This document shows, in pieces, positions 1-32,318 of a DNA stretch of 64,000 nt. The stretch lies in contig NC_012878.2 of the NCBI RefSeq assembly GCF_000003195.3, positions 44,460,116 through 44,524,115 on the forward strand. Direction: 5' to 3'. The position numbers were made by a program, and so were the translations under genes. Position 1 is the first letter of the stretch. Every line of letters starts with the position of its first letter. The stretch is from Sorghum bicolor. Its lineage: Eukaryota; Streptophyta; Magnoliopsida; Poales; Poaceae. Below the pieces are notes generated by a model that did not search any database, was not told where the DNA came from, and saw only the letters and a list, made by a program, of their open reading frames with translations.

Positions 1-332
1 TATGAACTTAGATGAAGAACAATTATATGCTAAAATAATAATACACAACATGATCTACAACTTTATAGTTGATAAACTTTTGATTCAAAAATTATTTAGA
101 ATTTCACTTGGCGTTGACAACGATATGGCATGGTGGTTCAGGCCTCGGGGTAATGGGGATGCGCTTGCGGGAGAGGGAAATTTCGTGTGGGAGATGGAGG
201 CGCATGCAGGAAAGATCCGCAGGGCCAAGGATGGCAAGTGACGGTTGGTTGGCAATTTTACCGATCGATTTTCACTAGATACTCGATAGAGGTATGAAAA
301 AAAGAACAAGAAAGAAAGAGACATTTCGACGC
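1..332. other. AT-rich flank outside the CACTA terminus
   Basis: This stretch lies outside the putative CACTA terminus at 333 and is shared with 28716-29047. It starts AT-rich and then becomes GC-richer around 130-240. The short open frames here have no recognisable domain and I see no gene. It may be remnant of another element. Confidence 0.5.
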
Positions 333-536
333 CACTGTTACAAGGTGAAATCCATTTATAGTCCCGGACTGTGAGCCGGATTAAGGTTTCGGTACTAAAT
401 ATCCCACCTTTAGTTTCAGTTGGCAGACCCGGGACCAAAGGGGACCTTTAGTTCTGGTTGGCAATACCAACCAGAACAATAGGGCTCACCAGCCCCTTTT
501 AGTCTCGGTTGGTATTACACACCGGGACTAAAGGTT
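333..536. repeat. CACTA terminal and subterminal inverted repeats
   Basis: Several short inverted repeats share the CTTTAGTyyyGGTTGGyA core and its complement (about 355-380, 445-475 and 497-533). Examples are a pair around CTGGTTGGCAATACCAACCAG and a pair around CTCGGTTGGTATT/ACACCGGGACTAAAG. Such arrays are the usual transposase-binding ends of grass CACTA elements. Confidence 0.75.
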
Positions 537-1074
537 TTTTTTCCTTTTCCTTTTCCTTTTCAATTCATTATTGATTTTGGTTTTATAATTATATTTGTTT
601 TCCAATTTATTTTTCGCTGCTATTATCCGTATACGTTGCACCTATACAAGAGCGTTATTATTGTACACAAATAAAGTATGAAACTATATATATTATAGAG
701 CTCTACATATACGTACATACACATTACATTTACAATAATATACAAGTAATCAAGTGTTCGGCCGCCGGTTAAAGGTTGTACAAATGTTTGCTCTCCACTC
801 AAAGCTCATACAAGTGTTCATCCTTGTTTGCACTATTCAATCCCAACCTAGGGTTGTAGTGGAACTCGGCGTCTTCCGGGATGACATGATCATTGATGAA
901 ACCTGCAATCGTCTCCTAGACTGCGACAAGTATTGTGTGGTCGAACACTTGTTCTTTCAATTCCCACTCCTTCCATTTGCATTAATTAAAGGAAAATATA
1001 TTTAATATACATAAGATTTATCTTGTTTCAACAAAAAAATAAGATATGAATTTAATGTATACACATGTTACTTA

Positions 1075-2028
1075 CTTTGAGCATCTGTTCAGAAGGTGTA
1101 AATTTGGTACACCGCATGTACTCGCAAACGTAGTATCCACATAAGTTGGTACTATATGGCTGTCTAGGCACCCACCTATGTAGAATAGGAGCGGAAAGTG
1201 GCGCTTTCAGATTCGTACGATATCTTTGTACGAATCAAGCCGAAGCCTTGCCCAATAAATCGGTCGTTGATTAGGTATAGCATAGTAAAGTTAAATAGCA
1301 TGCCCGATATTTAAAGAATGATATAACATACCTCTAGATCATGTCTATTATGTCTTGGTACATTGCCAGCTCTTTTCTCATTGAGTCCCAGACACATATA
1401 CATTGGTTCTTGAACTTAATCTCAATGAGTATACAGTGATCCCTGCATTTGTTTATAGAGTCAACTTATATATATATATCTTAATGCTGGATTCACTAAT
1501 ACATGATATAACACAACACTTTACCCCATATTATAAGGGAAGAGTATCAAGTCCTTGTGCGTTTGGTTATAAAAGAACCTCTAGAGGTTCTTCTCCATTT
1601 CCTTAGACCTCAGATTGAATGGATCGTCATTCTTGGTGTCCTTGTACACGACATAGAGATCAATAAAACCAATTCAATCGTCTTGTTTCAATCTGAGTTC
1701 TCTCATCATGTGTCTGCACATCATGAGCATATTAATTATGAATACGTACATATGCTAGAGTGGAATTATTGATTAAAAGGAAGAATCACTTACAAATAGT
1801 AGCAGCTCATGAGAGATTTGTCGAGATCATCCATATAGAGAAGCTGGTGTACTTCACTAAACTGTACCCACATGACGTCATCTCCACGGAAGTAGTGACG
1901 GTCTCTGACTTGGACGCCAATATATTGTTCAAGTACTTGTTGTCGATAGAAACTCATGTAGTACTCGTGCAACTTGTACATTTGTGTATGAAGTTGTTTT
2001 AAATTTGCAGGGTTGCATAGACTCCTAC
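1075..2028 (-). pseudogene. CACTA second-gene remnant with Ulp1-like cysteine peptidase
   Basis: Read on the minus strand, the segment at about 1790-2028 encodes NPANLKQLHTQMYKLHEYYM followed by a DRHYFRGDD-type motif. This is the conserved block preceding the Ulp1 domain in the TNPA-like protein of grass CACTA elements. A GT donor follows at about 1790. Further down are peptidase-like pieces: IGFIDLYVV and LILFPYN near 1500-1700, VWDSMRKELAMYQDIIDMI near 1330-1430, and CGYYVCEYMR near 1100-1150, where the catalytic cysteine region is expected. In-frame stops interrupt these pieces, so the gene is decayed. The N-terminal side continues at 3609-4127 beyond the solo LTR. A role in transposition or deSUMOylation is family knowledge only. 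Confidence 0.7.
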
Positions 2029-2386
2029 CATATTGAAAGTGCATTTGCCCCCTATGTGGGTTTTGGTGTATTGATGACATCCAATTTGGGGACTAATGCA
2101 TTTTATTTGAGATTTGCTACCGCTACTATTCTCATGAAAGATTCAAAGGTTTGACTTAATATGAAATGGTGTCTCCCAATCTTCGATCTTGAGAAAGGCA
2201 TTGGAATCAACCTAGAGCTTAATTGTTTATCTATTCTACTTTGGGTTTAGGCATGCCGTACTATCAAGAGGGGTTTAAAGGTTGTTGGTTTGGGGAAGAT
2301 AGAGTGCTCAAGTCTTTCAACTAAAACTTATTAGAGACACTCTAGCACCTCACATGCATGTAGATACCTTTTCTGTGTCCACTTGT

Positions 2387-2637
2387 GTCGGAAGTCCCGA
2401 CGTGAGTCGGAACTGCCGACGTGCTGCGCGGAGACTGTGGTCGTCGAAAGTCCCGACGTGAGTCGGAACTCCCGACGCCAAGTTCTGCGCGCGCACATGT
2501 CAGAAGTCCTGACAATCGTCAGAAGTCCCGACGGCAGGTCTCCGGCAGACTTCTGTCTCGCTCAAGCGCCAGCAGTTCCGACCTCGGTCAGCAGTGCTGA
2601 CACGTCGGAAGTCCCGACGTACGTCGGGAGTTCCGAC
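2387..2637. promoter_or_regulatory. Array of paired 15-bp palindromic motifs in the LTR U3
   Basis: The motif is close to GTCRGAAGTCCYGAC, an imperfect 15-bp palindrome. Ten copies occur as five pairs with starts exactly 19 bp apart (15 bp plus a 4-bp spacer): 2387/2406, 2443/2462, 2499/2518, 2568/2587 and 2604/2623. Pair 5 is nearly a hairpin, because the second arm is almost the complement of the first. The array ends about 120 bp upstream of the TATA box, consistent with an enhancer-like function, which is inference. Confidence 0.75.
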
Positions 2638-2756
2638 ATTAACTTTGCGCGCTGTCTTTGTCTGTCTCTTGTACAGTGTTTCCAGTGTGTGTCGAAAGTC
2701 CTTGGCTCTATGTCAGAACTTCCAACATAGATCTGAGCAGACTTTTCTCCCAGTAG

Positions 2757-2764
2757 TATAAATA
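2757..2764 (+). promoter_or_regulatory. TATA box of the copia LTR
   Basis: TATAAATA lies at the expected U3/R position in the LTR, in a CAGTAGTATAAATAGC context. Transcription would be predicted to begin roughly 30 bp downstream. The duplicate copy has the same box at 31472-31479. Confidence 0.7.
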
Positions 2765-3440
2765 GCTCTCTCTGTGATTCTAACCGTTACCCACTCATTC
2801 ATTGCGACCAACTCTCAGACAAAACAACTCTCAAGCATTCAGGACTCCTCTCTCCTCTTCCTCTTTGCTCTTAACTTCGATTCACCCAAGATTTAGAGTG
2901 ATTTGGAGAGTGGATAAGTGAGAGTAACACTTTGAGAAGCTTGAGCACTTGATCTCTTCGTCAAGCCAGCAAGTTTTGAGTTTATTACTCTTGGGTTCTT
3001 GGAACCCTAGCCGGCTAGGCGTCATCCAAGAGCTTCCATCTTGTGGAAGAGACTTGGAAAGTTTGTATTACCCTATTTTTCTTAGTGGAAAGCTCGAGTG
3101 ACCTTTGTGGTTACTTTGAGGGAGGCAAGGAGGTCAAAGAGACTCCGACCTTGGTGGTCACCTCAACAACGAGGACGTAGGAACTCCTTAGTGGGGTTGC
3201 CGAACCTTAGGGTAAATCCTTGTGTCACTTGTGGTTGTTGTTCTTAAGATCTACTTGTATTACTTGTATTTGCTTGTATACTTCAACCTCCTTTTAGGGT
3301 TTGGTCTCGATCTACGGTTTGGGGGACTCTTGGTGTCAAGGAAGGCTCTCAACATCTTCATCTAACCACTAGACAGTGATGTTATAAGTTGTGGATCTCA
3401 CAAAGTTCATTTAAGCACTTACAGTTCATTTCCCGTAGGT

Positions 3441-3517
3441 GTCGAAACTGCTGACAGTTTGCGTTGGAACTTCTGACAACGTCAGAAGTTCTGACCCAAA
3501 CTGTCGGGACTTCTGAC
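3441..3517. repeat. Second cluster of the 15-bp palindromic motif, near the LTR 3' end
   Basis: Four more copies of the GTCRGAAnTTCYGAC-like motif start at 3441, 3463, 3481 and 3503, within U5. The third is the cleanest: GTCAGAAGTTCTGAC, a perfect palindrome around its centre. The family therefore keeps the motif on both sides of the transcription start. Confidence 0.65.
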
Positions 3518-3603
3518 AGTTGCTGACAAGTGACTTTGACTTTTGTGTAGAATTTTTAGATACACCTATTCACCCCCCTCTAGGCATTGTTTAGATCCTT
3601 TCA

Positions 3604-4127
3604 CATATCTATACTGTCGTCGCCATTCATCAACAACTTTGGCTTCTTTAACAGACTCTTGATGCATAAGTTGTTCTATGGAGAGCCCAGTCGCATTCAT
3701 CCACTAGGCGACTTCATCTATGTTCACAGCGTCAGGTATTGCCATTTGTAGCATGTTCATGTTGGAACCATATTGATTCTGAACCACTAGTGGCGGCACT
3801 GATTGCTGCGCTTGTTGGCCGAGCTGTGCAACCTCTTTCACGGCCTTCTATTTTCTTTTGTCTGCCTTGATTGTTGTTCTAATAGTATGCTCATAGTCTG
3901 GCAGTGGTGGTGCTAGTTTTTTACTAACGACAAGCTTCTCATCTTACATAGCCTGTACCACTTGCCTCAACTTTGAGCAAGGATACATTAGGAATGGCTT
4001 CTCTTGCTTTGCTCGTGTGGCAGCTTTGGTTTTTTGAAGAACGCTTGCACATCTAACTTCACTAAAGCCTCAAATTCTTCATTAGTCTTCTCATATGAAA
4101 GCTTGGTCATCTTCGGGATCTTTGTGA
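3604..4127 (-). pseudogene. CACTA second-gene remnant, upstream part
   Basis: Minus-strand translation from about 3753 down to 3604 gives MLQMAIPDAVNIDEVA, a TAG, then MNATGLSIEQLMHQESVKEAK and a WRRQY motif. This leads into the GRSLCNP segment on the far side of the solo LTR (1790-2028). It belongs to the TNPA-like gene of grass CACTA elements. The Lys-rich segment at about 4020-4125 corresponds to KMTKLSYEKTNEEFEALVK in the duplicate. The copy is cut at 4127. Confidence 0.65.
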
Positions 4128-9915: not shown

Positions 9916-11640
9916 CTATTTTGGATCCAGGTTGGCCCCGATGAGGGCTGTCTTCTCGGGGTTGCCTTCGACCAGCTGCACTTCTTTGTACTCCTTGGAT
10001 TTTGAGTTTTTCCTGGCTGTCGCCTGTTCGGGTAATCGGAGCTGATCGGGAGGTAGCTGTGCGGCTTGGTTTGCTGTTTCCGCCATGCGGATTGAGAGGT
10101 CGATTGCCTCGTTGATCTTGAAGCTTTCTTCTTCGCAGGTGTACGCAGTGTAGACGTTGCCTCTGACGGTTAGGACGCCCTTCTCCGTGGGCATCTTAAG
10201 GACCAGGTATGAGTAGTGCGGTACTGCCATGAACTTTGTCAGCGATGGGCGGCCCAGTATGGCGTGATAGGTCCCGTCGAAATCCGCGACTACGAAGTTG
10301 ATGAACTCCGTCCGGAAGTGGTCGGGTGTGCCGAATTGGACAGGCAATGTTATCTGTCCAAGGGGCACTGAACTTTGACCTGGCAAAACCCCCCAGAATT
10401 GGGCGTCGTAAGGTTTTAGTTGTGCCGATGATATCTTGAGGGCGGGCAGGCTGTTGCGGAAGAGGATGTCGATGGAGCTTCCCCCGTCCACGAGCACGCG
10501 CTCGAATCTGATGCTATTGATGCAGGGGTCAAGAATCAGTGGGAAACGACCCGGCTCTGGGATAGCGGCCCACTGGTCCTTCCTGCTGAACGAGATCTCC
10601 CTGTGGGACCACGCGGGAAATTTCGGATCTGCGATCAGCCCGTCCGTGCTGTCTATGTTGAGGCAGGCTCTCTTTAACAGCTTTCTTTCTCGCTTGGACT
10701 CAGTGGAGACCTTGCCCCCGAAAATGGAGTGGACCACGTCAGTGGGGCTGACGTATTGGTGTCGGGGGTCCCTATCTTGGTCCTCATCCTCATCTTCGTG
10801 GTCGTGCCCGTCGCGCTTGTTATTTTTCTTGGCGGAGTCCTCTTGGGCGGCCCGCCGTGTATAGATACTTTTGAGGACGCGACACTCTTCCATGGTATGG
10901 TTGGACTTTGGGTGTAGCTGGCACGGTCCCTTCAATGTTTTGTTGTAGTCGTCTTGGTAGTCCCGTCGTCCATTGGGACGTTTGACCGTATTTACTTCGT
11001 GGTCGTAGTCGCGAGGGCGCTTTCCTCTGAAGTCGTCGCGGCTGTCGCGCCGCCGATCCCAACCCTCTCGGTGATCGCGGTTGTCGGAGCGGCGGTGATT
11101 TCTGTTGTCGTAGCGACCACGACCGTCATCTCGCCGGGAAGGCTGGTCGGGGCCTCTCGCATCGTCTCGGATTAGTTTTTCTGCGTCATCGGCATCGGCG
11201 TAATTTTTAGCCGTGGCGAGGAGCTCTGCTACCGTTGATGGGCGCTTACGCAACAGCTTGTTCCTCAGCGCTTCATGGAAACGCAAGCCCTTGATAAAGG
11301 CTGAGATGGCCTCATCATGAGAAATCTTCGGGATTTTGAGGCGCATATCCGAGAATCGTCGGATGTAGTCGTGCAGAGGTTCATTCTTCCTGTCTCTTAT
11401 CCTTTCAAGGTCATACTTGTTTCCGGGCTGCTCGCATGTGGCGATGAAGTTGTCGATGAAAGCCTGGCGTAGCTCTTCCCAAGAGTCGAAGGAGTCCTCG
11501 GGCAAGCCGAGAAGCCACTGATGACCAGCCTGGTCGAGGACTACGGGGAAGTAGTTAGCCATGACGTGCTCATCTCCTGCCGCTGATCGGACGGCGATTT
11601 CATAGAGAGTGATCCAGTTCTCTGGATTTTCCTTGCCGTC
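9916..11640 (-). pseudogene. gag: Element T gag-protease, N-terminus lost
   Basis: Open frame containing a retrotransposon Gag domain (WITLYEIAVRS through VAELLATAKNYAD) and an Arg/Asp-rich linker. A CHHC knuckle CQLHPKSNHTMEEC and an aspartic protease core LVDGGSSIDILF follow, with a later LGRPSL. The frame continues upstream to 11799, but residues before about MAQDGK are antisense reading of the neighbouring Tekay LTR, so the true gag start is gone. It ends with LDPK then TAG at 9916-9918, in frame with pol. The same TAG context occurs in element Y, which argues for programmed readthrough and against decay. Confidence 0.85.
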
Positions 11641-14233
11641 TTGGGCCATAATCAAGCGGGCCGGCCGCGTAGCACAGTGTGCTTTCTCTTTTTCCTTTTT
11701 GTTTAAAAATGCTTGATATATGAAATTGTGTAGAAAATTGGTTACTGATTCAAAAATCAGGGAAAAATTTTTATAGGTTCCATAAAATGAGTAGAACACA
11801 GGAAAAATATCAGGTTCTATTTTCTTGTTGTCTGCATGTATCTAAAAATTGCCTATTTTTATTGGTAAATAAAACTTCCATTAATTTTTAGTAATTTATT
11901 AGTATGCCCAAAAATCACCAAACTTTGTGGGGAGTCTCTGAATTTTATTTCCAGGTTTCACACAAAATTTGGTGACATTTGGATAATATTTGAATAAAAT
12001 ATTATTAAACCCTTATTTAATATTTAAATAATAATTCTAGAAAAATTAAATAATAATTAGTAATTGCTCAAAATTAGGATTTGAGTGATTTTGGGATTGT
12101 GTGATGACCTGAGGTCATTAACCTTAATGACCTTTGGCATTTAATTATTGTTTGGCATTAATGCTTAATTATTGTCATTAATAATTAATTAAGAATTAAT
12201 TAAGATAAAAATGATTAATAATTAGTTAATTTAAGATAATTATGAATTAAGAGAAGTCTTAATTTACAGATGCAACCTCTTGGGTAAAGACACTAAGATG
12301 TTAAATAATTTTAATTATTGTTTATTCTGTGTTGCACCGAGGAGGCCAGTTATACTCAACTTGGTCCTTTTTGCATATTTGTCATACGCATATCATGAGC
12401 ATTCATCATTTTGCGTATAGTGCACGTGACCGAAGGAGCGCCCGTTGAACCGAACCCCGAGGTCGGTGCTCCGTTTGAGGAAGTAGGACCCGAGACTTGG
12501 AAAGTCTCCGAGGGACCCTCTCTGCCCTGCAACCAAGGCAAGCCCCGGATGCATTAACCCCTCCTTGAATGTTTTAAATCTTTTATCACTTATGAATTGA
12601 AAATGCTGCATTAGGTAGTTGAGAATTGGGTTAACCTACTTGCTGCATTTACTACCTTGATATTTGTTATCCTGCCCTTGGCACCTGTTTTATTTTAAAA
12701 TTGCGTAGCGATGCTTAGCCCTGCTACTAGATAGGTTTTCAAACAAAGTTTGAAGGGTTGTTGTGGAATACACTTATGATCAATGATGTTTCAATTTGAG
12801 ACCGGTCGGTGGACTTGCTTTAAGAATGGAGTCTTAAAGTAGTGTCTCCAACTGTGTCGGTTAAGGACCGGTCCGTTGATGGCCCGCTGGGTTGAGAATT
12901 TATAGTACTAGCTACTTGCCCTCGGTAAGCCCGATCTTGTGATCCCTCGATGCGAACAGCTACTCGCGCACTGGGCGTGGAGCGATGGCGAGAGTAGTGT
13001 GTACCCACCTTACGGATCTGAGATGACCGGGAAACGTCTAGATCGGCTGTAGGATGGTGAAGTACTGTGCTCTCGGGTGCCGCGAACCTGGTCAAATTTG
13101 GGGAGAGCTTGATTTGGGTTGACATATGCAAGATCTGGTTCTACATATGTTGGGTGGTTAGGAACTCCAACTGGATTGCTAAGCGGTTCGAATCGTCGTT
13201 GCTCCCTGATTGGGAGACTCAATCCACTGACCCTCATCGTAGTTAATTATGCAACTAAGTGATAAAATGAGAAAAGGGAAAATGTCTCATGAGGTTCGGA
13301 TCCCAATTCCCGGACTCAGAGTGACATGAAGCTATGGCCGTTGGATAAATAATGCTTTAATTTAGGACTAAAAACTCACAGACTTGTCTGTGGGAGACAA
13401 CTAGTTAGACTGTCCTCGAACTCCTCGGCCTCTTAAGGAGAGGAATTCGTGGGTAAAACTTGAAAGTAAGGATGCACTATTAGTAAGCTTTTCTGCAAAA
13501 CACTTTGGCTCCTTGCTCAGCCACTCCTTGTCTACCCTAAGCCTGCATTCCTGTTTTCTCCTCTTTTTCCACCGGGTAAGTCTTGTTGAGTACTCCCGTA
13601 CTCAGGGTTTCATAACCCCTGTTGCAGGTGAAGCTCAGGAGCCGACTTGTTTCGGACCCTGTTGTGTGACCGTCGTCGAGGTTGACGACGAAGAAGAGTG
13701 AGCGTGACCCATGGGCAGGGTCTGTAAATTTGTAATCTGTATACTAAAGTTTAAGTTGCTCCGCTGGACCTGGCTTGTAATAACACTCTACTATTTGGAA
13801 GAACTCCTTTTGTAAAATAAGTTATGTAATACTTCCGCTGTTTTACTCTGAAATATTATTTTGGTCATATGTCGTTTGTGATACTGCAATGTCTTCGCAA
13901 CGAATGATCCTGGTGTTAAGGTGGCCACTTGCTATCCTGTAAGGGCGAGAAGAAGAAGTTCTCGTTAATTGACCATCACCAGTGGTCAGGACGAGCCTGC
14001 TTAGTACACCACAGGTAGCAGTGGAATGAGCGTCCAGCGATGCTCATCGGACTTCTAAAGTGGGAGGATCCCCGGCATCACCGTCAGAGGTCCTTAGGAC
14101 AATGACAGTGGAATGAGCGTCCAGCGATGCTCATCGGACTTCTAATGTGGGAGGATCCCCGGCATCACCGTCAGAGGTCCTTAGGACAATGACAGGTGTC
14201 GGTGGGCCCAAACACTTAGGGGGTTCTGCCACA
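11641..14233 (+). repeat. 5' LTR of element M, 5'-truncated
   Basis: The stretch matches 21821-22516 and 23912-25640 of the 3' LTR. It begins at about 11641 (TTGGGCC shared with the flanking gag sequence) and ends in GCCACA at 14233, immediately before the primer binding site. About 160 bp at 12345-12504 are present here but replaced by an insert in the 3' LTR. The segment around 11820-12330 is very AT-rich; no gene is seen. Confidence 0.88.
14019..14192 (+). repeat. 87-bp tandem duplication in the 5' LTR
   Basis: Two adjacent 87-bp units start at 14019 and 14106 (CAGTGGAATGAGCGTCCAGC...). They differ at one position (TAAAGTGGG versus TAATGTGGG). The same two-unit array is in the 3' LTR at 25426-25599, so it predates the insertion. 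Confidence 0.9.
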
Positions 14234-14235: not shown

Positions 14236-14247
14236 TGGTATCAGAGC
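14236..14247 (+). promoter_or_regulatory. Primer binding site of element M (tRNA-iMet type)
   Basis: TGGTATCAGAGC lies two bases after the 5' LTR end. It matches the 3' end of plant initiator methionine tRNA, the usual minus-strand primer for this lineage. Confidence 0.85.
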
Positions 14248-14605
14248 ATTCGTTGCTAAGATGACTGTTGTATCCTTTGAAAAACTTCAAAATCATTTGG
14301 ATCCAATGCTATAAACTGGCCTACTTTGAGTCCAAGTGCTTTAGTCCTAACTTACCCCTGTCCGTAGGCTTTCTTAGAATTTTTGAAGTGGTGTGGAGGA
14401 GCAACATTAAGTATTGCCCTATGTTGTAAAAATTTGAAGTAATACCGTTATGATTTGTTGATAGGAAGCGTAAGTTCGTGCATGCATCATGATCTATCAC
14501 TTGGTTAAATTCCTTCCTCCTTGTTTGGGTTGGGTGAGTAGAATCAATCCTATTCTTGCTAACCTTTAAGGTCTCCCTTACTAATCTAAACTTACCCTCT
14601 ACAGG
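14248..14605 (+). other. Untranslated leader of element M
   Basis: This lies between the primer binding site and the pre-gag ORF and has no coding signal. A CTCTACAG|G just before the ATG at 14606 resembles a splice acceptor, so the pre-gag ORF might be reached by splicing. That is inference. Confidence 0.4.
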
Positions 14606-15310
14606 ATGGCTCGCTGGAAACAGACCCCGCGCAAGAGGACTGGTCCAAAAGGGGTCCCCAGACATCAGTTGGCCCCACGCAGCGATCAAGCAAGCAGTAG
14701 CCGTTCACCGCCTTAGCAGGAGGTGGACAGGTTGTCCGCCGAGTTGACCGAAGTGATGAGAGAAAGGATGTACAACGTCATGGAGATCGGCGAACTTAAA
14801 GCTCAACTAGCCAAAGAAAAACAAGCTACCGAGAACTGTGAGGCCATGTTGTCCCGTATGGTGGAGGAGAGGAATGCCGCTATTTCCCGAGACGAAGAGG
14901 CCAGGAGCACACACAGGCACGAGCTGACTAGGATGAATGCGAAGCTGGGCAAGGCCAGGTACCTTAAAGATCTGTACGTGAAGATGGCGGCCACGGTCAC
15001 CGCGCAGCGGGATGTCGCGTGGCAGCGGGAGGACCAGCTCCAGTTAGAGAAGCTGGAGCTGGCACATCATTTAGATACCGTCATTGACTTGGCAATGCAA
15101 TATCGTGATATTGCATTTGACCTATATCATCAGCTCCATCCACCTCCAGGCGAAGGAGAGATGGATACGGATGGAGAGTTGGCGGACGATGGGGAACCCG
15201 ATCAAGGCCTCAGTGATGAAGAGGAGTCCGACCCCGATGACAACAACCCGGGGGGTAATCAGGATGATGGCAATGACGATCCGGGCTATAGCTCTGGCCA
15301 CACCGACTAG
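14606..15310 (+). pseudogene. Pre-gag ORF of element M with histone H3 tail-like N-terminus
   Basis: The frame begins ATGGCTCGCTGG and reads MARWKQTPRKRTGPK, continuing GVPRHQLAPRS. Aligned to the histone H3 tail (ARTKQTARKSTGGK..), the residues at K4, Q5, T6, R8, K9, T11, G12 and K14 are kept, and PR-x-QLA also aligns after a one-residue insertion. An in-frame TAG lies at codon 37 (14714-14716). Beyond it the frame stays open for about 198 codons. That part is a long charged coiled coil (about residues 40-150: VDRLSAEL, LKAQLAKEKQ) followed by an acidic Asp/Glu/Gly tail ending PGYSSGHTD. It lies upstream of gag in its own unit. I do not recognise a named protein family. The stop could be CAG to TAG decay in this copy. 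Confidence 0.7.
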
Positions 15311-15523
15311 TTCGGTGAAGCCGCGGGCAACGTCGTTGTAGGATCCCTAGTTTACCGTAGTGGGGTCGGGTTTGTAATATAAAGTTTTCTTTCAGTTTGA
15401 GAAGTTGTACTCGTTTGTTCTTGGTGTGTTGAACTGATGTTTAATAAATAAATGGAAGTATGTAAGATACGTTCCAAGTTATGAATTCCATGTGGTAACA
15501 AGTACCTATGACTCTTGTAGCAG
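15311..15523 (+). other. Spacer between pre-gag ORF and gag
   Basis: AT-rich spacer with no open frame of note. It ends with TTGTAGCAG|ATGCC, which resembles a splice acceptor directly before the gag ATG. Gag may therefore be expressed from a spliced transcript that removes the pre-gag ORF; this is inference. Confidence 0.35.
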
Positions 15524-16700
15524 ATGCCGATGCGTACACGAGGATCTGATGGAGCCGGGACATCTCAGGGAGGGGATGATATCCCCAACCCTCCACTTGC
15601 TCCACCTTCTTTGGCTGATGCCATTGCTGTTCTTTTGAGTGCCACTACCGACAACGCTCGCTTGCTGCGCGAGTTAGCACAACGTCAACCACACCCCGCC
15701 CCAAACTTCAGAGCACTGCACAATGGGGACGGAGAAGCTCGGTACGTGGACTTTACCGAGACAAGGCCCCCGGTATTCACTAAGGCTGATGAGCCGTTAG
15801 AAGCGGATGACTGGCTCCGGACCATGGAGCACAAGTTTAGTTTGATTCAGTGTTCAGAAACTCAGAAGCCCCTGTTCGCAGCTCAGCAGCTTCGGGGAGC
15901 TGCAGGTGCCTGGTGGGAGAACTTCCTAGCTATCCAAGCTCCGGGACACCATGTCACCTGGACCGAGTTTAAGGACGCATTCCGCGCCCATTACATCCCT
16001 GAAGGGCTCATGGCCATGAAGGCCGAAGAATTTCTCGCCTTGCAGCAAGGCGATAAAAGTGTCATGGAGTACGTGGCAAAGTTTAATCATCTTTCTCAAT
16101 ATGCCACAGACCATGTAAACACGGACAGAAAGAAGAAAGCCTGCTTCATGCGTGGTCTAAATACCAAACTTCAGACCATGATGACCATCTGTCAAAATGC
16201 TACCTTCTACGAGGCGGTAAATATTGCCATCGCCTCAGAAGAAAAGAATAGAAAGCACAAAGAAGCCAAGAAAAAGGCTGCTTCTTCCTCCTTCTCTGGT
16301 CGCGGTCAAAAGCGCCAGAGAATCATTTATCATCCGCAGGGCCACGGACGCTTTCAAGCGCCATCACCTTATCGTGGTCCCTTTTCCCCACCACAATATA
16401 GATGAGGGCAGCAGGTATACCCTCGACCTACTGCCATCGCCCTTGCACCACGCCAGCCGAACGCCCCAGGTCTTCGCCCCACTGCTCCGCCCAGCCACAA
16501 TTACCCTTGTTTTAATTGTGGTAAGCCAGGGCATTTTTCCAAAGAATGCCCTTATCCCCGCCAAACCAACCCCACCTTCCAAAGGCCACCTATGGGCCAA
16601 CCCCAGCCGGGCCAATTCAGGACTGGGGTTCAGAAAGGACAAAATGTGCAAAAGGGAAAACCAGCAAAGAAAGTGGGACAAGTCTTCCATACGGAGGTGG
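15524..16700 (+). pseudogene. gag: Element M gag, with one in-frame stop
   Basis: Starts at MPMRTRGSDGAG. The retrotransposon Gag domain spans roughly residues 85-200 (VFTKADEPLEADDWLRTMEHKF, then GAWWENFLA and EFLALQQGDKSVMEYVAKF). A basic linker precedes a TGA at 16403-16405. Downstream, in the same frame, a CCHC knuckle [14 protein letters not shown] begins near residue 329. The frame then continues into protease without a gag stop, so gag and pol form one polyprotein in this element. The TGA is compatible with methyl-C decay of CGA. Confidence 0.85.
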
Positions 16701-19700
16701 AGACGATCCCGGAGGGTGAACCAGTAATGATGGGTACGTTTCCTGTCACGAAACATCCTGCTTTAATGCTTTTCGATTCTGGTGCATCTCATACATTCAT
16801 CAATCGCACCTTTGTGTTAAAGCATGGCATACCCATTGGGGAAACACAAGATCATTTTTATATACAGTCGCCAGGAGGGCGACTGAGTTCTAAAGAAATG
16901 GTTCACCAGGTACCCATCGAATTTGGTGGGCATAGTTTTCCCACTAGCATGATTGTTCTTAAGGACCACGAGATTGATGTCATACTAGGCATGAACTGGA
17001 TGGCACAACGAGGGGTTGTGCTAGACACTTTGCATCGAACCATTAAAATCCCATTGCCCAATGAGAATTCTTATTTGCTAATTCAATTAGTTACTCCCAA
17101 GCGGACAATTGGGCAAGTTCATGCCACTAATGTGTCTGCAGTCAAATATATCCCGGTAGTTCGAGATTTTCCGGACGTGTTTTCTGAAGACCTACCAGGT
17201 CTGCCACCGGACCGGGATGTACAATTCAGTATAGAATTGAAACCAGGGACGACCCTAATATCTCGAAGGGCCTACAGAATGGCACCAAAAGAGCTGGCCG
17301 AATTAAAAACCCAACTACAAGAGCTATTACAGAAAGGTTTTATTCAGCCCAGTTCTTCTCCATGGGGTTGCCCAGCCTTATTTGTGAAAAAGAAGGATCA
17401 AACATTAAGGCTGTGTGTCGACTATCGTCCCCTAAATGAGGTGACGATTAAAAATAAGTACCCATTGCCCCGCATCGACTTACTGTTTGACCACCTAGCC
17501 GGGGCCAAAGTATTCTCAAAAATTGATTTGAGATCGGGGTACCACCAAATTAAAATTAGGCCGGAAGATGTGCCCAAGATAGCTTTTACAACCCGTTACG
17601 GGCTGTATGAATACTTGGTAATGTCTTTTGGGTTGACCAATGCACCGGCCCATTTCATGTACCTGATGAACTCTGTCTTCATGCCAGAACTAGACAAATT
17701 TGTAGTCGTCTTTATTGATGATATTTTAATCTACTCCAAGACTAAGAAAGAACATGCTGAACATTTGAGAATCGTGCTGACCCATCTTAGGGAGCATCAA
17801 CTATATGCCAAGTTCAGCAAATGTGAGTTCTGGCTGGACAAAGTTCATTTCCTGGGTCATGTGTTATCAGCGGAGAAAGTCGCTGTAGACCCAGGCAAGG
17901 TAGAAGATGTGTTGAATTGGAAACCCCCGACTACGGTACATGAGGTCCGTAGTTTTCTGGGTATGGCGGGATATTACCGTCGTTTTATCCCGGACTTTTC
18001 AAGAGTCGCCAAACCAATCACGACCTTGCTCAAGAATCAAACAAAATTTGTTTGGTCACCTCAGTGTGAGCAAGCCTTTCAGACTCTGAAAAGGTTATTG
18101 ACAACTGCACCTGTCTTAGCCCAGCCAGATATTGAAAAACCCTTTGATGTGTATTGTGACGCATCAGGGATTGGGATAGGCTGTGTGCTAATGCAGGAGG
18201 GTCGCGTAATTGCATATGCTTCCAGACAGCTTAAACAACATGAGGAGAATTACCCGACCCATGATCTTGAACTAGCCGCCGTGGTACATGCATTAAAGAT
18301 CTGGCGCCATTATCTGTTGGGGAACACATGTCATCTATACACCAATCACAAAAGCTTGAAGTACATCTTCACTCAAGCTGAATTAAATATGCGCCAGCGA
18401 AGGTGGCTAGAGTTAATCAAAGATTACGACCTTGAGGTGCATTATCACCCTGGCAAGGCAAATGTTGTAGCTGATGCCCTCAGTCGTAAGGCTCACTGTA
18501 ATTGCTTAATAGTGACGCCTAGAGATATAACTTTGTGCCAAGAGCTAGAGAACTTGGGGATAGAAATGATTTCCCAAGGAAGCCTTGCCAATCTAAAGAT
18601 TGAGTTTAATCTCGAAGTTCAAATCATAGAGGCACAAAAAGAAGACAAAGGCATGAAACATCTTAAAGAGAAAATTTCTAATAGAGCACCCACAGACTTT
18701 GAGGTGGATGGTGCAGGAGTAATCTGGTTCAAGAACCGGTTAGTGGTTCCAAAGGTACCTGAGCTACGTCAACAAATCCTGGATGAAGCTCATACCACGA
18801 GGTATTCTATTCATCCGGGAAGCAATAAGATGTATCAGGACCTAAAGCAAAGGTTTTGGTGGACAAAAATGAAAATAGAAATAGCCCGCTATGTGGCCAA
18901 TGTGACACCTGCCGAAAAGTCAAAGCTATTCATCTCAAATCTGCTGGAGAGTTGCAACCTTTGCCTATTCCAGCGTGGAAATGGGATGATATTAGTATGG
19001 ATTTCATAGTAGGATTGCCCAAGACGACCAAAGGCTTTGATTCTATTTGGGTCATTGTGGATCGTCTCACCAAAACAGCACACTTCTTACCTGTAAAGAC
19101 ATCGTATCATACTTCCACCTATGCTCAGATTTATTTTGATCGTATACTAAGTCTGCATGGGGTGCCAAAGACAATAGTGTCAGATAGAGGCACACAATTT
19201 GTCTCCCAGTTCTGGAAATGCTTACATGAATCCTTGGGCACCAAACTTTTATACAGCACAGCCTACCACCCTCAAACAGGTGGGCAAACTGAAAGGGTGA
19301 ATCAAACCCTAGAAGATCTATTAAGATCTTGTGCCCTGAATTTTCCAGATAAGTGGGATGACTGCTTACCTCTAGCAGAGTTTTCCTACAACAATAGCTA
19401 CCAAGAAAGTATTAAAATGGCTCCCTTTGAGGCGCTATATGGTCGACGATGTCGAACTCCACTACATTGGTCGGAACCTGGAGAAAGGTGGTTCTTTGGG
19501 GTTGACTTAGTGAAAGAAACTGAGGACAAAGTTAGACAAATCCAAAATAACTTGAAGGTTGCTCAGTCCCGACAGAAAAGCTATGCCGATAAAAGACGTC
19601 GACCCTTAAGATTCGCCAAAGGTGACCATGTATATTTGAAAGTGTCCCCAATGAAAGGAGTAAATCGTTTTGGTGTTAAAGGCAAGTTAGCGCCCCGTTA

Positions 19701-20055
19701 CATTGGTCCATTTCCAATCATTGACCGATGTGGACAGGTAGCTTACCGCCTTAAACTGCCCGAACGATTATCCGGGATACACAATGTGTTCCATGTGTCT
19801 CAACTGAAAAAGTGTCTTCGGGTACCAGACCAAGTCCAAGATATTGAAGATGTGGAACTTGAACCGGATTTAACTTATTCGGAGTATCCTATCCGAGTAC
19901 TGGACCAAAGAAATAGAGTTACTCGAAGAACAACTACCAAGTGGTACAAGGTACAGTGGAGCCAGCACTCTGAAGAGGAAGCCACGTGGGAATCTGAGGA
20001 TTATCTGCTGGAGAATTTTCCTGAGTTCCACGCTTCTCTTCAGGACAACATCTGA
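16701..20055 (+). pseudogene. pol: Element M pol: protease, RT, RNase H, integrase, chromodomain
   Basis: Domains in order: protease [11 protein letters not shown] near 16770; RT with [22 protein letters not shown] and [10 protein letters not shown] (17400-17740); RNase H with [13 protein letters not shown] and [10 protein letters not shown] (18140-18490). Integrase follows with its zinc region interrupted near 18897, where the frame shifts by one base. Its core resumes with [21 protein letters not shown] and HPQTGGQTERVNQ. The C-terminus (VLDQRNRVTRR, KVQWSQHSEEEATWE) is a chromodomain, which in this lineage can direct integration to H3K9-methylated chromatin. The single-base deletion separates integrase from RT, so this copy is non-autonomous. 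Confidence 0.88.
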
Positions 20056-20260: not shown

Positions 20261-22516
20261 TGTAACATCCTCGATGTTACGGTTACTGAAATTTGGATCA
20301 TGGCATCATCAGCATTGCACAGCTTATTTGTTAAGCACACCTTGATGCATCAACTTAAAATGAGTTTAATTTGGTTGAATGTGTTCAGGGAATTAATGTG
20401 TGATTATCTTGTATATCGATGCTTGTGTTGGTTGCTAAACCCCTAGGATGAAAGATTTCCGAAAGGCTTAGGGGGGGGAACCCTGATATTTGAACCCCAG
20501 ATTTGCCCCCTTTTGCACAATTTAAAAACCAAGCAAAATTTGAGGTTGAGTTCAAAAGCAAAGTTGTAGATCTTGTCAAGATGTACAACTTTAGTGTTTT
20601 GAGTTTTTGAAGTTTCAATATAAAATTCAAAGTAATTTTGAAAATACAGATTTCCAGGAAGTGTCCCCTTTTCCAATTTAAACCTCCAATTCAAAATCTA
20701 TGTGGAATTTTGAAAAGTGACCAACATGAAAGTTGTAGAGCTCAAAACTTTGAACAACTTTCATGTTGGGAGTTTTTCAAGTTGTTTAGGAAAAACAAAA
20801 GTAATTTTGGAAATTCTGATCTGCCCCAATTCAAAAATTTGAATTTTTCCCAAATTGAATTTTGATTTGCAAACTGTTTTGGCAAAATCACCATGTTCCA
20901 CTCAAAATTGGCTTTGGTCACCAAAACATGTTTTGTAGCTTACAAAATTCTGTACGACTTTCATTTTGGTGAAATTTTGGCTCCAGTTCAAATTTTGGGT
21001 GAATTTGGCAAAACTACAAACTGAGTGGATTGGGCTTGCTACAGTGTTCGGGCAGGGGGGGTGCTCTGCCGCCGGGGCAGAGCCGCGGCGTCCAGCGTTG
21101 CCACGCGCCTGGCCACGCAGCTGCTTTCTGCTGTGCCTCGCGCGGACGTCCTCATCCGCTACCAGTTCAACGCTGCAAGGATAAAGCCTCGAGCCGCCGT
21201 GGAAAATTTCTTTTCCCTCTGCACTCCAACGCCGACGAGCTCACTGCGCCCATCAAATTCGCGTTCCTTGCTCCCTTTCCAAGCCACCCGAACACGCCAA
21301 CAGCTTCGCCAAGAACTCCGCCACCGATTGCACCCCCTAGCGCAAGCTCTAATCCCCCATAAGCCGCAACCGAGCCGTTCTCCTTCGACTCCGGCCGAAG
21401 CACCGCCACAAGCACTTCACCGCGGCCAGCTCATCTCCGGGCTCCTCAACCGTCGCTCGCTACCTTGTCGAAGTTGCGGTGAGCCCCTGGTACTCCCACG
21501 CCCCTTCCCTCGCTCTCTAACGGCTCTGGATGCTCGGGGTTTGGCGCCGAAGTGTTTCCGGCCGCCGGAGCCGTGGCCGGGTAGCTTCCGAGCTCTCCGT
21601 GATCACATTGAGCACGCTAGGCCACTCAAGGGGTCAAGGCGAACCTACTGGAGTGATTGGTTAGCGCCGGGGAAGTCTCATTGGCGGCTGGGTGATCGCT
21701 GGAGCTGCGGCGCGAGGAGGAAGACGAAGCTGACGGGCGGGACCCGCCCGTCAGTGGCTGCGTGAGACAGGCAGCGCCCGCGCGCGACGCGGGAGAGCTC
21801 TCGGGCCGACTTGGGCCGTAACCAAGCGGGCCGGCCGCGTAGCACAGTGTGCTTTCTCTTTTTCCTTTTTGTTTAAAAATGCTTGATATATGAAATTGTG
21901 TAGAAAATTGGTTACTGATTCAAAAATCAGGGGAAAATTTGTATAGGTTCCATAAAATGAGTAGAACACAGGAAAAATATCAGATTCTATTTTCTGGTTG
22001 TCTCCATGTATCTAAAAATTGCCTATTTTTATTGGTAAATAAAACTTCCATGAATTTTTAATAATTTATTAGTATGCCCAAAAATCACCAAACTTTGTGG
22101 GGAGTCTCTGAATTTTATTTCCAGGTTTCACACAAAATTTGGTGACATTTGGATAATGTTTGAATAAAATATTATTAAACCCTTATTTAGTATTTAAATA
22201 ATAATTCTAGAATAATTAAATAATAATTAGTAATTGCTCAAAATTAGGATTTGAGTGATTTTGGGATTGTGTGATGACCTGAGGTCATTAACCTTAATGA
22301 CCTTTGGCATTTAATTATTGTTTGGCATTAATGCTTTATTACTGTCATTAATAATTAATTAAGAATTAATTAAGATAAAAAGGATTAATAATTAGTTAAT
22401 TTAAGATAATTATGAATTAAGATAAGTCTTAATTTACAGATGCAACCTCTTGGGTAAAGACACTAAGATGTTAAACAATTTTAATTATTGTTTATTCTGT
22501 GTTGCACCGAGGAGGC

Positions 22517-23911: not shown

Positions 23912-25425
23912 TCTCCGAGGGACCCTCTCTGCCCTGCAACCAAGGCAAGCCCCGGATGCATTAACCCCTCCTTGAATGTTTTAAATCTTTTATCACTTAT
24001 GAATTGAAAATGCTGCATTAGGTAGTTGAGAATTGGGTTAACCTACTTGCTGCATTTACTACCTTGATATTTGTTATCCTGCCCTTGGCACCTGTTTTAT
24101 TTTAAAATTGCGTAGCGATGCTTAGCCCTGCTACTAGATAGGTTTTCAAACAAAGTTTGAAGGGTTGTTGTGGAATACACTTATGATCAATGATGTTTCA
24201 ATTTGAGACCGGTCGGTGGACTTGCTTTAAGAATGGAGTCTTAAAGTAGTGTCTCCAACTGTGTCGGTTATGGACCGGTCCGTTGATGGCCCGCTGGGTT
24301 GAGAATTTATAGTACTAGCTACTTGCCCTCGGTAAGCCCGATCTTGTGATCCCTCGATGCGAACAGCTACTCACGCACTGGGCGTGGAGCGATGGCGAGA
24401 GTAGTGTGTACCCACCTTACGGATCTGAGATGACCGGGAAACATCTAGATCGGCTGTAGGATGGTGGAGTACTGTGCTCTCGGGTGCCGCGAACCTGGTC
24501 AAATTTGGGGAGAGCTTGATTTGGGTTGACATATGCAAGATCTGGTTCTACATATGTCGGGTGGTTAGGAACTCCAATTGGATTGCTAAGCGGTTCGAAT
24601 CGTCGTTGCTCCCTGATTGGGAGACTCAATCCACTGACCCTCATCGTAGTTAATTATGCAACTAAGTGATAAAATGAGAAAAGGGAAAATGTCTCATGAG
24701 GTTCGGATCCCAATTCCCGGACTCAGAGTGACATGAAGCTATGGCTGTTGGATAAATAATGCTTTAATTTAGGACTAAAAACTCACAGACTTGTCTGTGG
24801 GAGACAACTAGTTAGACTGTCCTCGAACTCCCCGGCCTCTTAAGGAGAGGAATTCGCGGGTAAAACTTGAAAGTAAGGATGCTCTATTAGTAAGCTTTTC
24901 CGCAAAACACTTTGGCTCCTTGCTCAGCCACTCCTTGTCTACCCTAAGCCTGCATTCCTGTTTTCTCCTCTTTTTCCACCAGGTAAGTCTTGTTGAGTAC
25001 TCCCGTACTCAGGGTTTCATAACCCCTGTTGCAGGTGAAGCTCAGGAGCCGACTTGTTTCGGACCCTGTTGTGTGACCGTCGTCGAGGTTGACGACGAAG
25101 AAGAGTGAGCATGACCCATGGGCAGGGTCTGTAAATTTGTAATCTGTATACTAAAGTTTAAGTTGCTCCGCTGGACCTGGCTTGTAATAACACTCTACTA
25201 TTTGGAAGAACTCCTTTTGTAAAATAAGTTATGTAATACTTCCGCTGTTTTACTCTGAAATATTATTTTGGTCATATGTCGTTTGTGATACTGCAATGTC
25301 TTCGCAACGAATGATCCTGGTGTTAAGGTGGCCACTTGCTATCCTGTAAGGGCGAGAAGAAGAAGTTCTCGTTAATTGACCATCACCAGTGGTCAGGACG
25401 AGCCTGCTTAGTACACCACAGGTAG

Positions 25426-25599
25426 CAGTGGAATGAGCGTCCAGCGATGCTCATCGGACTTCTAAAGTGGGAGGATCCCCGGCATCACCGTCAGAGGTCC
25501 TTAGGACAATGACAGTGGAATGAGCGTCCAGCGATGCTCATCGGACTTCTAAAGTGGGAGGATCCCCGGCATCACCGTCAGAGGTCCTTAGGACAATGA
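25426..25599 (+). repeat. 87-bp tandem duplication in the 3' LTR of M
   Basis: Two 87-bp units start at 25426 and 25513. They match the array at 14019-14192 in the 5' LTR. Confidence 0.9.
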
Positions 25600-25640
25600 C
25601 AGGTGTCGGTGGGCCCAAACACTTAGGGGGTTTTGCCACA

Positions 25641-28715: not shown

Positions 28716-29047
28716 TATGAACTTAGATGAAGAACAATTATATGCTAAAATAATAATACACAACATGATCTACAACTTTATAGTTGATAAACTTTTGATT
28801 CAAAAATTATTTAGAATTTCACTTGGCGTTGACAACGATATGGCATGGTGGTTCAGGCCTCGGGGTAATGGGGATGCGCTTGCGGGAGAGGGAAATTTCG
28901 TGTGGGAGATGGAGGCGCATGCAGGAAAGATCCGCAGGGCCAAGGATGGCAAGTGACGGTTGGTTGGCAATTTTACCGATCGATTTTCACTAGATACTCG
29001 ATAGAGGTATGAAAAAAAGAACAAGAAAGAAAGAGACATTTCGACGC

Positions 29048-29251
29048 CACTGTTACAAGGTGAAATCCATTTATAGTCCCGGACTGTGAGCCGGATTAAG
29101 GTTTCGGTACTAAATATCCCACCTTTAGTTTCAGTTGGCAGACCCGGGACCAAAGGGGACCTTTAGTTCTGGTTGGCAATACCAACCAGAACAATAGGGC
29201 TCACCAGCCCCTTTTAGTCTCGGTTGGTATTACACACCGGGACTAAAGGTT
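29048..29251. repeat. CACTA terminal and subterminal repeats, right copy
   Basis: Duplicate of 333-536: a CACTG terminus, then inverted repeats around TTTAGTTCTGGTTGG and CTTTTAGTCTCGG/CCGGGACTAAAG. CGC precedes the terminus and could be one half of a 3-bp target duplication, but the other end is not available. Confidence 0.72.
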
Positions 29252-29789
29252 TTTTTTCCTTTTCCTTTTCCTTTTCAATTCATTATTGATTTTGGTTTTA
29301 TAATTATATTTGTTTTCCAATTTATTTTTCGCTGCTATTATCCGTATACGTTGCACCTATACAAGAGCGTTATTATTGTACACAAATAAAGTATGAAACT
29401 ATATATATTATAGAGCTCTACATATACGTACATACACATTACATTTACAATAATATACAAGTAATCAAGTGTTCGGCCGCCGGTTAAAGGTTGTACAAAT
29501 GTTTGCTCTCCACTCAAAGCTCATACAAGTGTTCATCCTTGTTTGCACTATTCAATCCCAACCTAGGGTTGTAGTGGAACTCGGCGTCTTCCGGGATGAC
29601 ATGATCATTGATGAAACCTGCAATCGTCTCCTAGACTGCGACAAGTATTGTGTGGTCGAACACTTGTTCTTTCAATTCCCACTCCTTCCATTTGCATTAA
29701 TTAAAGGAAAATATATTTAATATACATAAGATTTATCTTGTTTCAACAAAAAAATAAGATATGAATTTAATGTATACACATGTTACTTA

Positions 29790-30743
29790 CTTTGAGCATC
29801 TGTTCAGAAGGTGTAAATTTGGTACACCGCATGTACTCGCAAACGTAGTATCCACATAAGTTGGTACTATATGGCTGTCTAGGCACCCACCTATGTAGAA
29901 TAGGAGCGGAAAGTGGCGCTTTCAGATTCGTACGATATCTTTGTACGAATCAAGCCGAAGCCTTGCCCAATAAATCGGTCGTTGATTAGGTATAGCATAG
30001 TAAAGTTAAATAGCATGCCCGATATTTAAAGAATGATATAACATACCTCTAGATCATGTCTATTATGTCTTGGTACATTGCCAGCTCTTTTCTCATTGAG
30101 TCCCAGACACATATACATTGGTTCTTGAACTTAATCTCAATGAGTATACAGTGATCCCTGCATTTGTTTATAGAGTCAACTTATATATATATATCTTAAT
30201 GCTGGATTCACTAATACATGATATAACACAACACTTTACCCCATATTATAAGGGAAGAGTATCAAGTCCTTGTGCGTTTGGTTATAAAAGAACCTCTAGA
30301 GGTTCTTCTCCATTTCCTTAGACCTCAGATTGAATGGATCGTCATTCTTGGTGTCCTTGTACACGACATAGAGATCAATAAAACCAATTCAATCGTCTTG
30401 TTTCAATCTGAGTTCTCTCATCATGTGTCTGCACATCATGAGCATATTAATTATGAATACGTACATATGCTAGAGTGGAATTATTGATTAAAAGGAAGAA
30501 TCACTTACAAATAGTAGCAGCTCATGAGAGATTTGTCGAGATCATCCATATAGAGAAGCTGGTGTACTTCACTAAACTGTACCCACATGACGTCATCTCC
30601 ACGGAAGTAGTGACGGTCTCTGACTTGGACGCCAATATATTGTTCAAGTACTTGTTGTCGATAGAAACTCATGTAGTACTCGTGCAACTTGTACATTTGT
30701 GTATGAAGTTGTTTTAAATTTGCAGGGTTGCATAGACTCCTAC
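29790..30743 (-). pseudogene. CACTA second-gene remnant with Ulp1-like peptidase, right copy
   Basis: Same sequence as 1075-2028. Minus-strand motifs are TQMYKLHEYYM, HYFRGDD, IGFID, LILFPYN and CGYYVCEYMR. The stops are shared with the left copy, so they predate the duplication. Confidence 0.7.
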
Positions 30744-30748
30744 CATAT

Positions 30749-32318
30749 TGAAAGTGCATTTGCCCCCTATGTGGGTTTTGGTGTATTGATGACATCCAAT
30801 TTGGGGACTAATGCATTTTATTTGAGATTTGCTACCGCTACTATTCTCATGAAAGATTCAAAGGTTTGACTTAATATGAAATGGTGTCTCCCAATCTTCG
30901 ATCTTGAGAAAGGCATTGGAATCAACCTAGAGCTTAATTGTTTATCTATTCTACTTTGGGTTTAGGCATGCCGTACTATCAAGAGGGGTTTAAAGGTTGT
31001 TGGTTTGGGGAAGATAGAGTGCTCAAGTCTTTCAACTAAAACTTATTAGAGACACTCTAGCACCTCACATGCATGTAGATACCTTTTCTGTGTCCACTGG
31101 TGTCGGAAGTCCCGACGTGAGTCGGAACTGCCGACGTGCTGCGCGGAGACTGTGGTCGTCGAAAGTCCCGACGTGAGTCGGAACTCCCGACGCCAAGTTC
31201 TGCGCGCGCACATGTCAGAAGTCCTGACAATCGTCAGAAGTCCCGACGGCAGGTCTCCGGCAGACTTCTGTCTCGCTCAAGCGCCAGCAGTTCCGACCTC
31301 GGTCAGCAGTGCTGACACGTCGGAAGTCCCGACGTACGTCGGGAGTTCCGACATTAACTTTGCGCGCTGTCTTTGTCTGTCTCTTGTACAGTGTTTCCAG
31401 TGTGTGTCGAAAGTCCTTGGCTCTATGTCAGAACTTCCAACATAGATCTGAGCAGACTTTTCTCCCAGTAGTATAAATAGCTCTCTCTGTGATTCTAACC
31501 GTTACCCACTCATTCATTGCGACCAACTCTCAGACAAAACAACTCTCAAGCATTCAGGACTCCTCTCTCCTCTTCCTCTTTGCTCTTAACTTCGATTCAC
31601 CCAAGATTTAGAGTGATTTGGAGAGTGGATAAGTGAGAGTAACACTTTGAGAAGCTTGAGCACTTGATCTCTTCGTCAAGCCAGCAAGTTTTGAGTTTAT
31701 TACTCTTGGGTTCTTGGAACCCTAGCCGGCTAGGCGTCATCCAAGAGCTTCCATCTTGTGGAAGAGACTTGGAAAGTTTGTATTACCCTATTTTTCTTAG
31801 TGGAAAGCTCGAGTGACCTTTGTGGTTACTTTGAGGGAGGCAAGGAGGTCAAAGAGACTCCGACCTTGGTGGTCACCTCAACAACGAGGACGTAGGAACT
31901 CCTTAGTGGGGTTGCCGAACCTTAGGGTAAATCCTTGTGTCACTTGTGGTTGTTGTTCTTAAGATCTACTTGTATTACTTGTATTTGCTTGTATACTTCA
32001 ACCTCCTTTTAGGGTTTGGTCTCGATCTACGGTTTGGGGGACTCTTGGTGTCAAGGAAGGCTCTCAACATCTTCATCTAACCACTAGACAGTGATGTTAT
32101 AAGTTGTGGATCTCACAAAGTTCATTTAAGCACTTACAGTTCATTTCCCGTAGGTGTCGAAACTGCTGACAGTTTGCGTTGGAACTTCTGACAACGTCAG
32201 AAGTTCTGACCCAAACTGTCGGGACTTCTGACAGTTGCTGACAAGTGACTTTGACTTTTGTGTAGAATTTTTAGATACACCTATTCACCCCCCTCTAGGC
32301 ATTGTTTAGATCCTTTCA
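30749..32318 (+). mobile_element. Ty1/copia-type solo LTR, right copy
   Basis: Duplicate of the LTR at 2034-3603, with the same TGAAAG/CTTTCA ends and CATAT target duplications at 30744-30748 and 32319-32323. One substitution relative to the left copy was noticed (31099). The paired 15-bp palindromes lie at 31102-31352 and the second cluster at 32156-32232. The LTR was inserted before the duplication. Confidence 0.9.

Follow-up and report, generated by a model that had tools for sequence, protein, structure and literature searches.

The window, that is, the whole stretch of 64,000 nucleotides of Sorghum bicolor DNA analysed here, contains an LTR retrotransposon whose features are listed in Table 1. 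Its Pfam domains follow the order gag, protease, reverse transcriptase, RNase H and integrase, with PF00385 last at the integrase C-terminus, and the architecture is that of a chromovirus of the Ty3/gypsy type. The sequence TGGTATCAGAGC just inside the 5' LTR is presumably the primer site for initiator-Met tRNA. Between the 5' LTR and gag lies an additional ORF of the same sense, here termed ORF0, as is the case for the 5' additional ORF of Tekay and Retrosat-2. Chromodomain type and 5' ORF together fit membership in the Tekay clade, the chromodomain type alone being no proof of it since type II chromodomains occur in other clades too. Tekay elements are known from seed plants only, according to the available extract of PMC6317226.

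Table 1. Features of the ORF0-bearing element, in window coordinates.
Feature	Position	Strand	Basis
5' LTR, part common with 3' LTR	12505..14233	+	99.1% identical to 23912-25640
Primer-binding-site-like TGGTATCAGAGC, just inside 5' LTR	14236..14247	+	sequence
3'-splice-site-like pyrimidine tract and CAG, directly before ORF0 start	14591..14604	+	sequence; in-frame reading LTLYR
ORF0	14606-15310	+	between primer-binding-site-like site (14236) and gag (15524); the element is Ty3/gypsy with a chromodomain
H3-tail-like N-terminus of ORF0, codons 1-25	14606..14680	+	translation, H3 searches, alignment
In-frame TAG, ORF0 codon 37, window copy	14714..14716	+	translation; close relative P0001 open throughout
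Long helix of ORF0, probable coiled coil, residues 36-177 (P0001 numbering)	14711..15136	+	AlphaFold model of P0001, 22 sequences
Acidic disordered C-terminal tail of ORF0, residues 178-234	15137..15307	+	translation; low pLDDT in P0001 model
gag (capsid part)	15524..16405	+	Pfam PF03732 E 2.9e-21, PF19259
Protease, reverse transcriptase, RNase H, integrase zinc-binding part	16592..19009	+	Pfam PF08284, PF00078, PF17917, PF17921
Integrase core, SH3-like domain, C-terminal chromodomain	18856..20055	+	Pfam PF00665, PF24626, PF00385
Chromodomain, residues 347-390 of the ORF at 18856	19894..20025	+	PF00385; aligned to solved chromodomains
3' LTR, matching part	23912..25640	+	99.1% identity; LTR start may be TGTTGACG at 22517

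A repeat of 712 bases with 97.5% identity (11635-12346 and 21805-22516) precedes both LTR parts, from which it is separated by 158 bases on the 5' side and 1395 bases on the 3' side, and TGTTGACG at 22517 resembles an LTR start. Such a layout points to a tandem or a truncated LTR more than to a simple element. In the stretch from the LTR end to ORF0 there are six upstream ATGs. The region 14543-14605 contains a branch-point-like TTGCTAAC, pyrimidines and a CAG that ends one base before the ORF0 start, a combination that resembles a splice acceptor. A CAG also directly precedes the start of gag (15480-15524), and pieces of the leader recur in relatives of ORF0, namely NPILANL in P0102 and LTLYR before the Met of P0044, P0089 and P0111. 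Given these sequence features, a spliced leader may precede ORF0 in the transcript from which it is translated.

Translation reproduced the ORF that had originally been predicted, including its start and the TAG at codon 37. ORF0 begins with MARWKQTPRKRTGPKGVPRHQLAPR and is closed by an acidic stretch at 15310; two in-frame stops lie close upstream of 14606, with no same-frame Met in between. Allowing for one inserted residue, 16 of 22 positions (Met plus residues 1-21) are identical to histone H3. The matches named in the original prediction (A1, R2, K4, Q5, T6, R8, K9, T11, G12 and K14, followed by PR-x-QLA) are all present, with P16, R17, Q19, L20 and A21 making up the latter motif and the inserted residue located before it. 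When H3(1-41) was compared with the whole window in six frames by tblastn (word size 2, composition correction off), the ORF0 start was the top match with an E value of 4e-5, the runner-up reaching 0.12. None of 20000 shuffled ORF0 tails scored as high as the real one. A phmmer search of ORF0 residues 1-36 against PDB (177635 distinct sequences) gave a best E value of 0.015, and the best 60 of its 115 matches (E up to 10) were all H3 or CENH3-type chains. A profile built from 12 tails of the family likewise found H3 in PDB (best E 1.1e-7), with the best 60 of 140 matches all being H3, CENH3 or fusions thereof. The resemblance of the ORF0 start to the histone H3 tail is thus confirmed to go beyond chance, which is ruled out by the shuffled tails and the profile match.

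Homologues of ORF0 were collected in three protein searches, of which 56 of 56, 120 of 549 and 120 of 2039 matches were examined, amounting to 259 different proteins. The total number of homologues is at least 2039, the largest search having scored the 7997 candidates that shared most words; as these words came partly from the tail, a homologue combining a decayed tail with a strongly diverged remainder would escape. Among the 259 proteins, 163 reach the tail region and all of these carry the H3-like tail: 150 in full, 12 that are predicted to start inside it, and P0089, whose tail is present although it was missed by the search pattern. The other 96 are predicted to start downstream of the tail and are hence uninformative in this respect. 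Intact relatives lacking the H3-like start would have spoken against the proposed mimicry, and no tail-less homologue with a sufficient N-terminus was found among the 259, where 12 of the 163 reach the tail only partly. A nucleotide search for related loci in viral and genome contig collections yielded no confirmed relative, and the place of ORF0 upstream of gag, which was read from the window copy, is assumed for the distant relatives.

A close relative with an open frame, P0001, is 95% identical to the window ORF0, and homologues as distant as P0047 and P0116 (32% and 30% identity to P0001 over the whole alignment) belong to the same family. P0116 starts with MARTKQTARKMTGPKGVPRHQLA and matches H3 at 18 of 22 positions, more than the window copy, P0049, with an overall identity likewise near 30%, starts with MAKTKITARKSTGPHGVPRHQLA and matches at 16 of 22, and P0043, the weakest of 22 representatives, still matches at 11 of 22. 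When ten divergent members are reduced to a majority consensus, its start reads MARTKQTARK, which is identical to H3 over the first 10 letters. The resemblance therefore does not disappear in the family consensus, which is more H3-like than the window copy, and the tails of the relatives exclude that the H3 matches are confined to that copy. In 5 of the 150 full tails the Met is out of register (one residue earlier in four, preceded by a longer leader in one), so that an exact free Ala1 is not always kept. Several homologues (P0002, P0004-P0006, P0012, P0015-P0018 and P0022) are predicted to start at or adjoining residue 40, just past the codon-37 stop of the window copy. This reflects either a habit of the gene caller or a stop common to many copies, and in the latter case a free tail peptide of ~36 residues could result.

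In order to compare the tail with the remainder of the protein, 22 representatives with <75% identity were chosen, among which the largest cluster weighs less. The mean majority fraction was 0.82 over the first 25 positions and 0.42-0.58 in 25-residue windows from position 33 onwards, and the H3-like tail is the most conserved part of ORF0. Pairs whose remainders are <20% identical (28 pairs) have on average 61% of the tail in common, and pairs at 20-30% (100 pairs) 71%; 230 of the 231 pairs were long enough to be counted.

Residue counts were based on 129 distinct tails, leaving out the 12 partial tails, P0089 and the 96 downstream starters; since a single cluster accounts for 91 of the 150 full tails, these counts do not represent independent events. 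Most strictly kept are the position of H3 K9, with Lys in 126 tails and Arg in none, T6 (Thr in 124) and the PRxQLA positions (P16 Pro 125, Q19 Gln 122, L20 Leu 127, A21 Ala 126). The R8 position holds Arg in 113 tails and Lys in none, and 14 of the other 16 have His or Cys, for which CpG decay could be the source. The lack of Lys at R8 was dropped as a special argument because Arg columns outside the tail show likewise little or no Lys. Other positions are more permissive, including K4 (Lys 75, Arg 53), R2 (Arg 88, Lys 19), Q5, and A7 (Ala 56, Pro 27, Gln 24, Thr 16), which is Pro in the window copy. The lysines that are acetylated in H3 are mostly lost: K14 is Lys in 29 tails, K18 is His in 128 and K23 is Arg in 117. 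What the tail preserves is thus PRxQLA and the R8-K9 context, whereas most acetylation lysines have disappeared. Of the 22 representatives, 21 have Lys and none has Arg at K9, 20 have Arg at R8, and at K4 there are 15 with Lys and 7 with Arg. Of the K4, K9 and K14 contexts whose conservation was originally put forward for checking, the one around R8-K9 is strongly conserved, whereas K4 is frequently exchanged for Arg and K14 is seldom retained.

Four departures from H3 are as strict as the H3-like residues: G13 is replaced by Pro in 122 of the 129 tails, A15 by Val in 126 and K18 by His in 128, and the inserted residue is Gly in 121. Some of the constraint consequently goes beyond H3 likeness and serves something absent from H3. 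In a tree computed without the tail, the H3-like residues Q5 and A7 occur on both sides of the midpoint root, which suggests a more H3-like ancestor, bearing in mind that the deep forks are weak (76/90), that the root is a midpoint root only and that some branches exceed one change per column.

An AlphaFold model was computed from 22 homologues with P0001 as the first row. Residues 1-35 are without structure (pLDDT 52-62 across the first four blocks of ten), and the tail would accordingly be accessible. A single helix spans residues 36-177, with pLDDT >90 over most of its length, and the acidic end is disordered (pTM 0.41). The charged coiled coil and acidic tail that had been proposed to follow the H3-like start are matched in the model by this helix and the disordered end, while the coiled coil itself is deduced from the helix. 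Judging from its length, the helical rod is probably a coiled-coil oligomer that displays the tail. ORF0 is not a true histone, as the model of P0001 is one long helix without a histone fold. Pfam scans of P0001, P0042, P0045, P0047 and P0056 gave no histone match up to E 0.1, and all matches of these five proteins were below the cut-offs.

The chromodomain at the end of Pol, which was part of the original prediction, is real (PF00385, E 1.8e-6, above the Pfam cut-off). Its alignment to solved chromodomains is weak (best E 0.013; plectin is matched as well). At the positions of the methyl-lysine cage, this alignment keeps the middle Trp, places His at the last position and has no aligned aromatic at the first, so that at most one of three cage aromatics is retained. 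The element's own chromodomain thus seems to be without a methyl-lysine cage. Type II chromodomains are described as lacking the cage residues and as having no known ligand (PMC6317226, in extract), and the same lack of cage residues and of a known partner is stated for this chromodomain type elsewhere (PMC12786077, in extract). The missing aromatics and these published statements leave the proposed pairing of the H3-like tail with an H3K9me reader of the same element unsupported in its simple form, and an H3K9me-reading chromodomain as first proposed was rejected on the cage alignment.

Our best overall reading, towards which the balance tips modestly, is that ORF0 is a selected H3-tail mimic that would engage host H3-tail-binding proteins. 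Its N-terminus (up to about residue 22) is disordered, exposed and H3-imitating, and is followed by a long rod of helix and then by an acidic end that is disordered. The tail would descend from the captured 5' end of a host H3 gene and would have been retained because host readers or writers of the H3 tail bind it. Protein conservation makes it highly probable that the tail is a genuine, selected H3 mimic. That it acts by binding H3-tail-binding proteins appears reasonably probable, and we posit only tentatively, at somewhat less than an even chance, that its partner belongs to the H3K9 pathway. Plants silence such elements largely via H3K9 methylation and linked DNA methylation. The near-invariance of K9, T6, PRxQLA and, less strictly, R8, along with the loss of most K14, K18 and K23 lysines, favours this pathway over acetyl readers, and the likeliest target would be a SUVH-type methyltransferase or a K9me reader. 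As K4 and A7 vary, it is less likely that one classical reader of the PHD or HP1 type serves the whole family. HP1-type readers bury A7 of H3; this residue is often replaced in the family, in the window copy by Pro, so that recognition of every member by a classical chromodomain is hardly conceivable. The tail might act as a substrate-like competitor or as a docking peptide, presented in several copies by the helical rod, and the outcome would be altered silencing of the element or altered integration by it.

A rival explanation would be that the basic N-terminus is merely a nuclear import signal, possibly copying the importin contact of H3, by which ORF0, and perhaps the particle as well, would enter the nucleus. 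The tail is indeed rich in Lys and Arg, the two are commonly exchanged at K4 and R2, and the 5' ORF proteins of Tekay elements are predicted to be nuclear (PMC11728184, in extract). Import would however require neither a Lys so strictly kept at K9 nor T6, G12 and PRxQLA, whose conservation is roughly that of the basic residues, and we consider this explanation unlikely. K14 and K23, the lysines used by the importins of H3, are moreover mostly not Lys in the tails. Comparably unlikely, in our view, is that the captured H3 tail serves as a methylatable decoy or handle whose K9 would be methylated by the host and which would compete for K9 methyltransferases or readers and/or be the ligand of the element's own type II chromodomain. 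If this were true, the element would carry a counterfeit chromatin mark together with its reader.

That the tail docks onto the integrase chromodomain of its own element, and thereby helps to assemble or steer the pre-integration complex, seems rather improbable. Tail and chromodomain are encoded by the same element and the ligand of type II chromodomains is not known (PMC6317226, in extract), but the chromodomain retains the middle cage aromatic only, and sunflower Tekay groups without the 5' ORF still have a chromodomain (PMC11728184, in extract). It is quite improbable that the tail goes back to a single capture from a host H3 gene and has since been passed on by descent with no current H3-related role. 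Capture as such would fit the unbroken likeness over 22 residues from the Met and the A2 consensus being nearer to H3 than most members, and a changed role would fit the conserved departures P13, inserted G, V15 and H18. A functionless relic would yet decay at least as fast as the remainder of the protein, and the 61-71% of the tail that is shared between members whose remainders are <20-30% identical speaks against it. Constraint could also act on the nucleic acid, be it for splicing, packaging or priming, with the H3 likeness as a by-product or chance. The splice-acceptor-like sequence directly before the start codon and the leader parts recurring in other families would fit this reading, but it is most improbable given the alternation of variable codons (6, 8, 11 and 15) with near-invariant ones, a pattern of protein constraint, and given that a match to H3 at E 1e-7 in a search of all of PDB is not chance.

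An ORF0 has been described in Retrosat-2 and its relatives, with a Ka of 0.2574 against 0.0783 for ORF1, whereas Ks differs little (1.6471 and 1.3298); the rice and sorghum versions are only about 10% similar (PMC3485330, in extract). In sunflower, 500 of 523 elements of Tekay group 2 have a conserved 5' ORF that is predicted to be nuclear and has no amino-acid similarity to the grass ORFs compared, as stated in the available part of PMC11728184. The Tekay-clade ORF0s (Retrosat-2, RIRE3, RIRE8, maize and sorghum Tekay, sunflower Tekay 13-2) resemble the window ORF0 in being extra ORFs 5' of gag-pol and in being predicted nuclear, partly helical and disordered, and fast-evolving; unlike for the window ORF0, no histone likeness is reported for them in the extracts of PMC3485330 and PMC11728184, this comparison being one of descriptions only. 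The word 'histone' has 0 occurrences in the main text of these two papers and likewise 0 in the extract of a review of additional ORFs (PMC7264820). No description of H3 likeness in a retrotransposon ORF was found among the open-access papers listed in literature searches, and three tail motifs searched as text gave 0 occurrences; an earlier mention elsewhere is possible.

Histone mimicry itself is known, and the retrotransposon would be a new kind of carrier; the known cases that come nearest are influenza NS1 and the SNAG domain. The H3 likeness of influenza NS1 covers only a few residues. NS1 is, like the window ORF0, an H3-tail mimic in a parasite protein, with its likeness at the C-terminus (PMC12937675, in extract), whereas that of ORF0 is N-terminal, spans about 22 residues and is carried by retrotransposon-type proteins. 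The SNAG domain of GFI1 and SNAI1 is an N-terminal H3-tail mimic that occupies the substrate cleft of LSD1 (PMC5896174, in extract); it belongs to animal transcription factors and is likened to ORF0 by description, not by sequence. ORF0 copies the H3 tail from residue 1, unlike the ARKS/ARKT mimics. These G9a/GLP-type mimics are short internal motifs of non-histone host proteins that copy the R8-K9 context.

As a histone mimic, ORF0 would have no described precedent in transposable elements, as far as the open-access papers listed in the searches show, and it hints at a previously unnoticed way for a jumping gene to handle host chromatin. The role of the extra 5' proteins of Tekay elements is an open question (PMC11728184, in extract), to which the conserved copy of the H3 tail provides a concrete candidate answer, as it does for the ligand of the chromodomain. 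The tails would also provide natural peptides to probe plant readers and writers of the H3 tail.

The window contains further repeats. The segments 1-4127 and 28716-32842 form a repeat of 4127 bases with 99.98% identity, perhaps a very recent LTR pair reaching the window edge. A direct repeat of ~990 bases (44669-45657 and 57933-58924, 99.1% identity) possibly represents the LTRs of another element, and gypsy-type gag and reverse transcriptase ORFs lie between its copies at 45683-51031. An ORF on the reverse strand at 55339-57006 contains the Pfam domain PF04195 ('putative gypsy type transposon').
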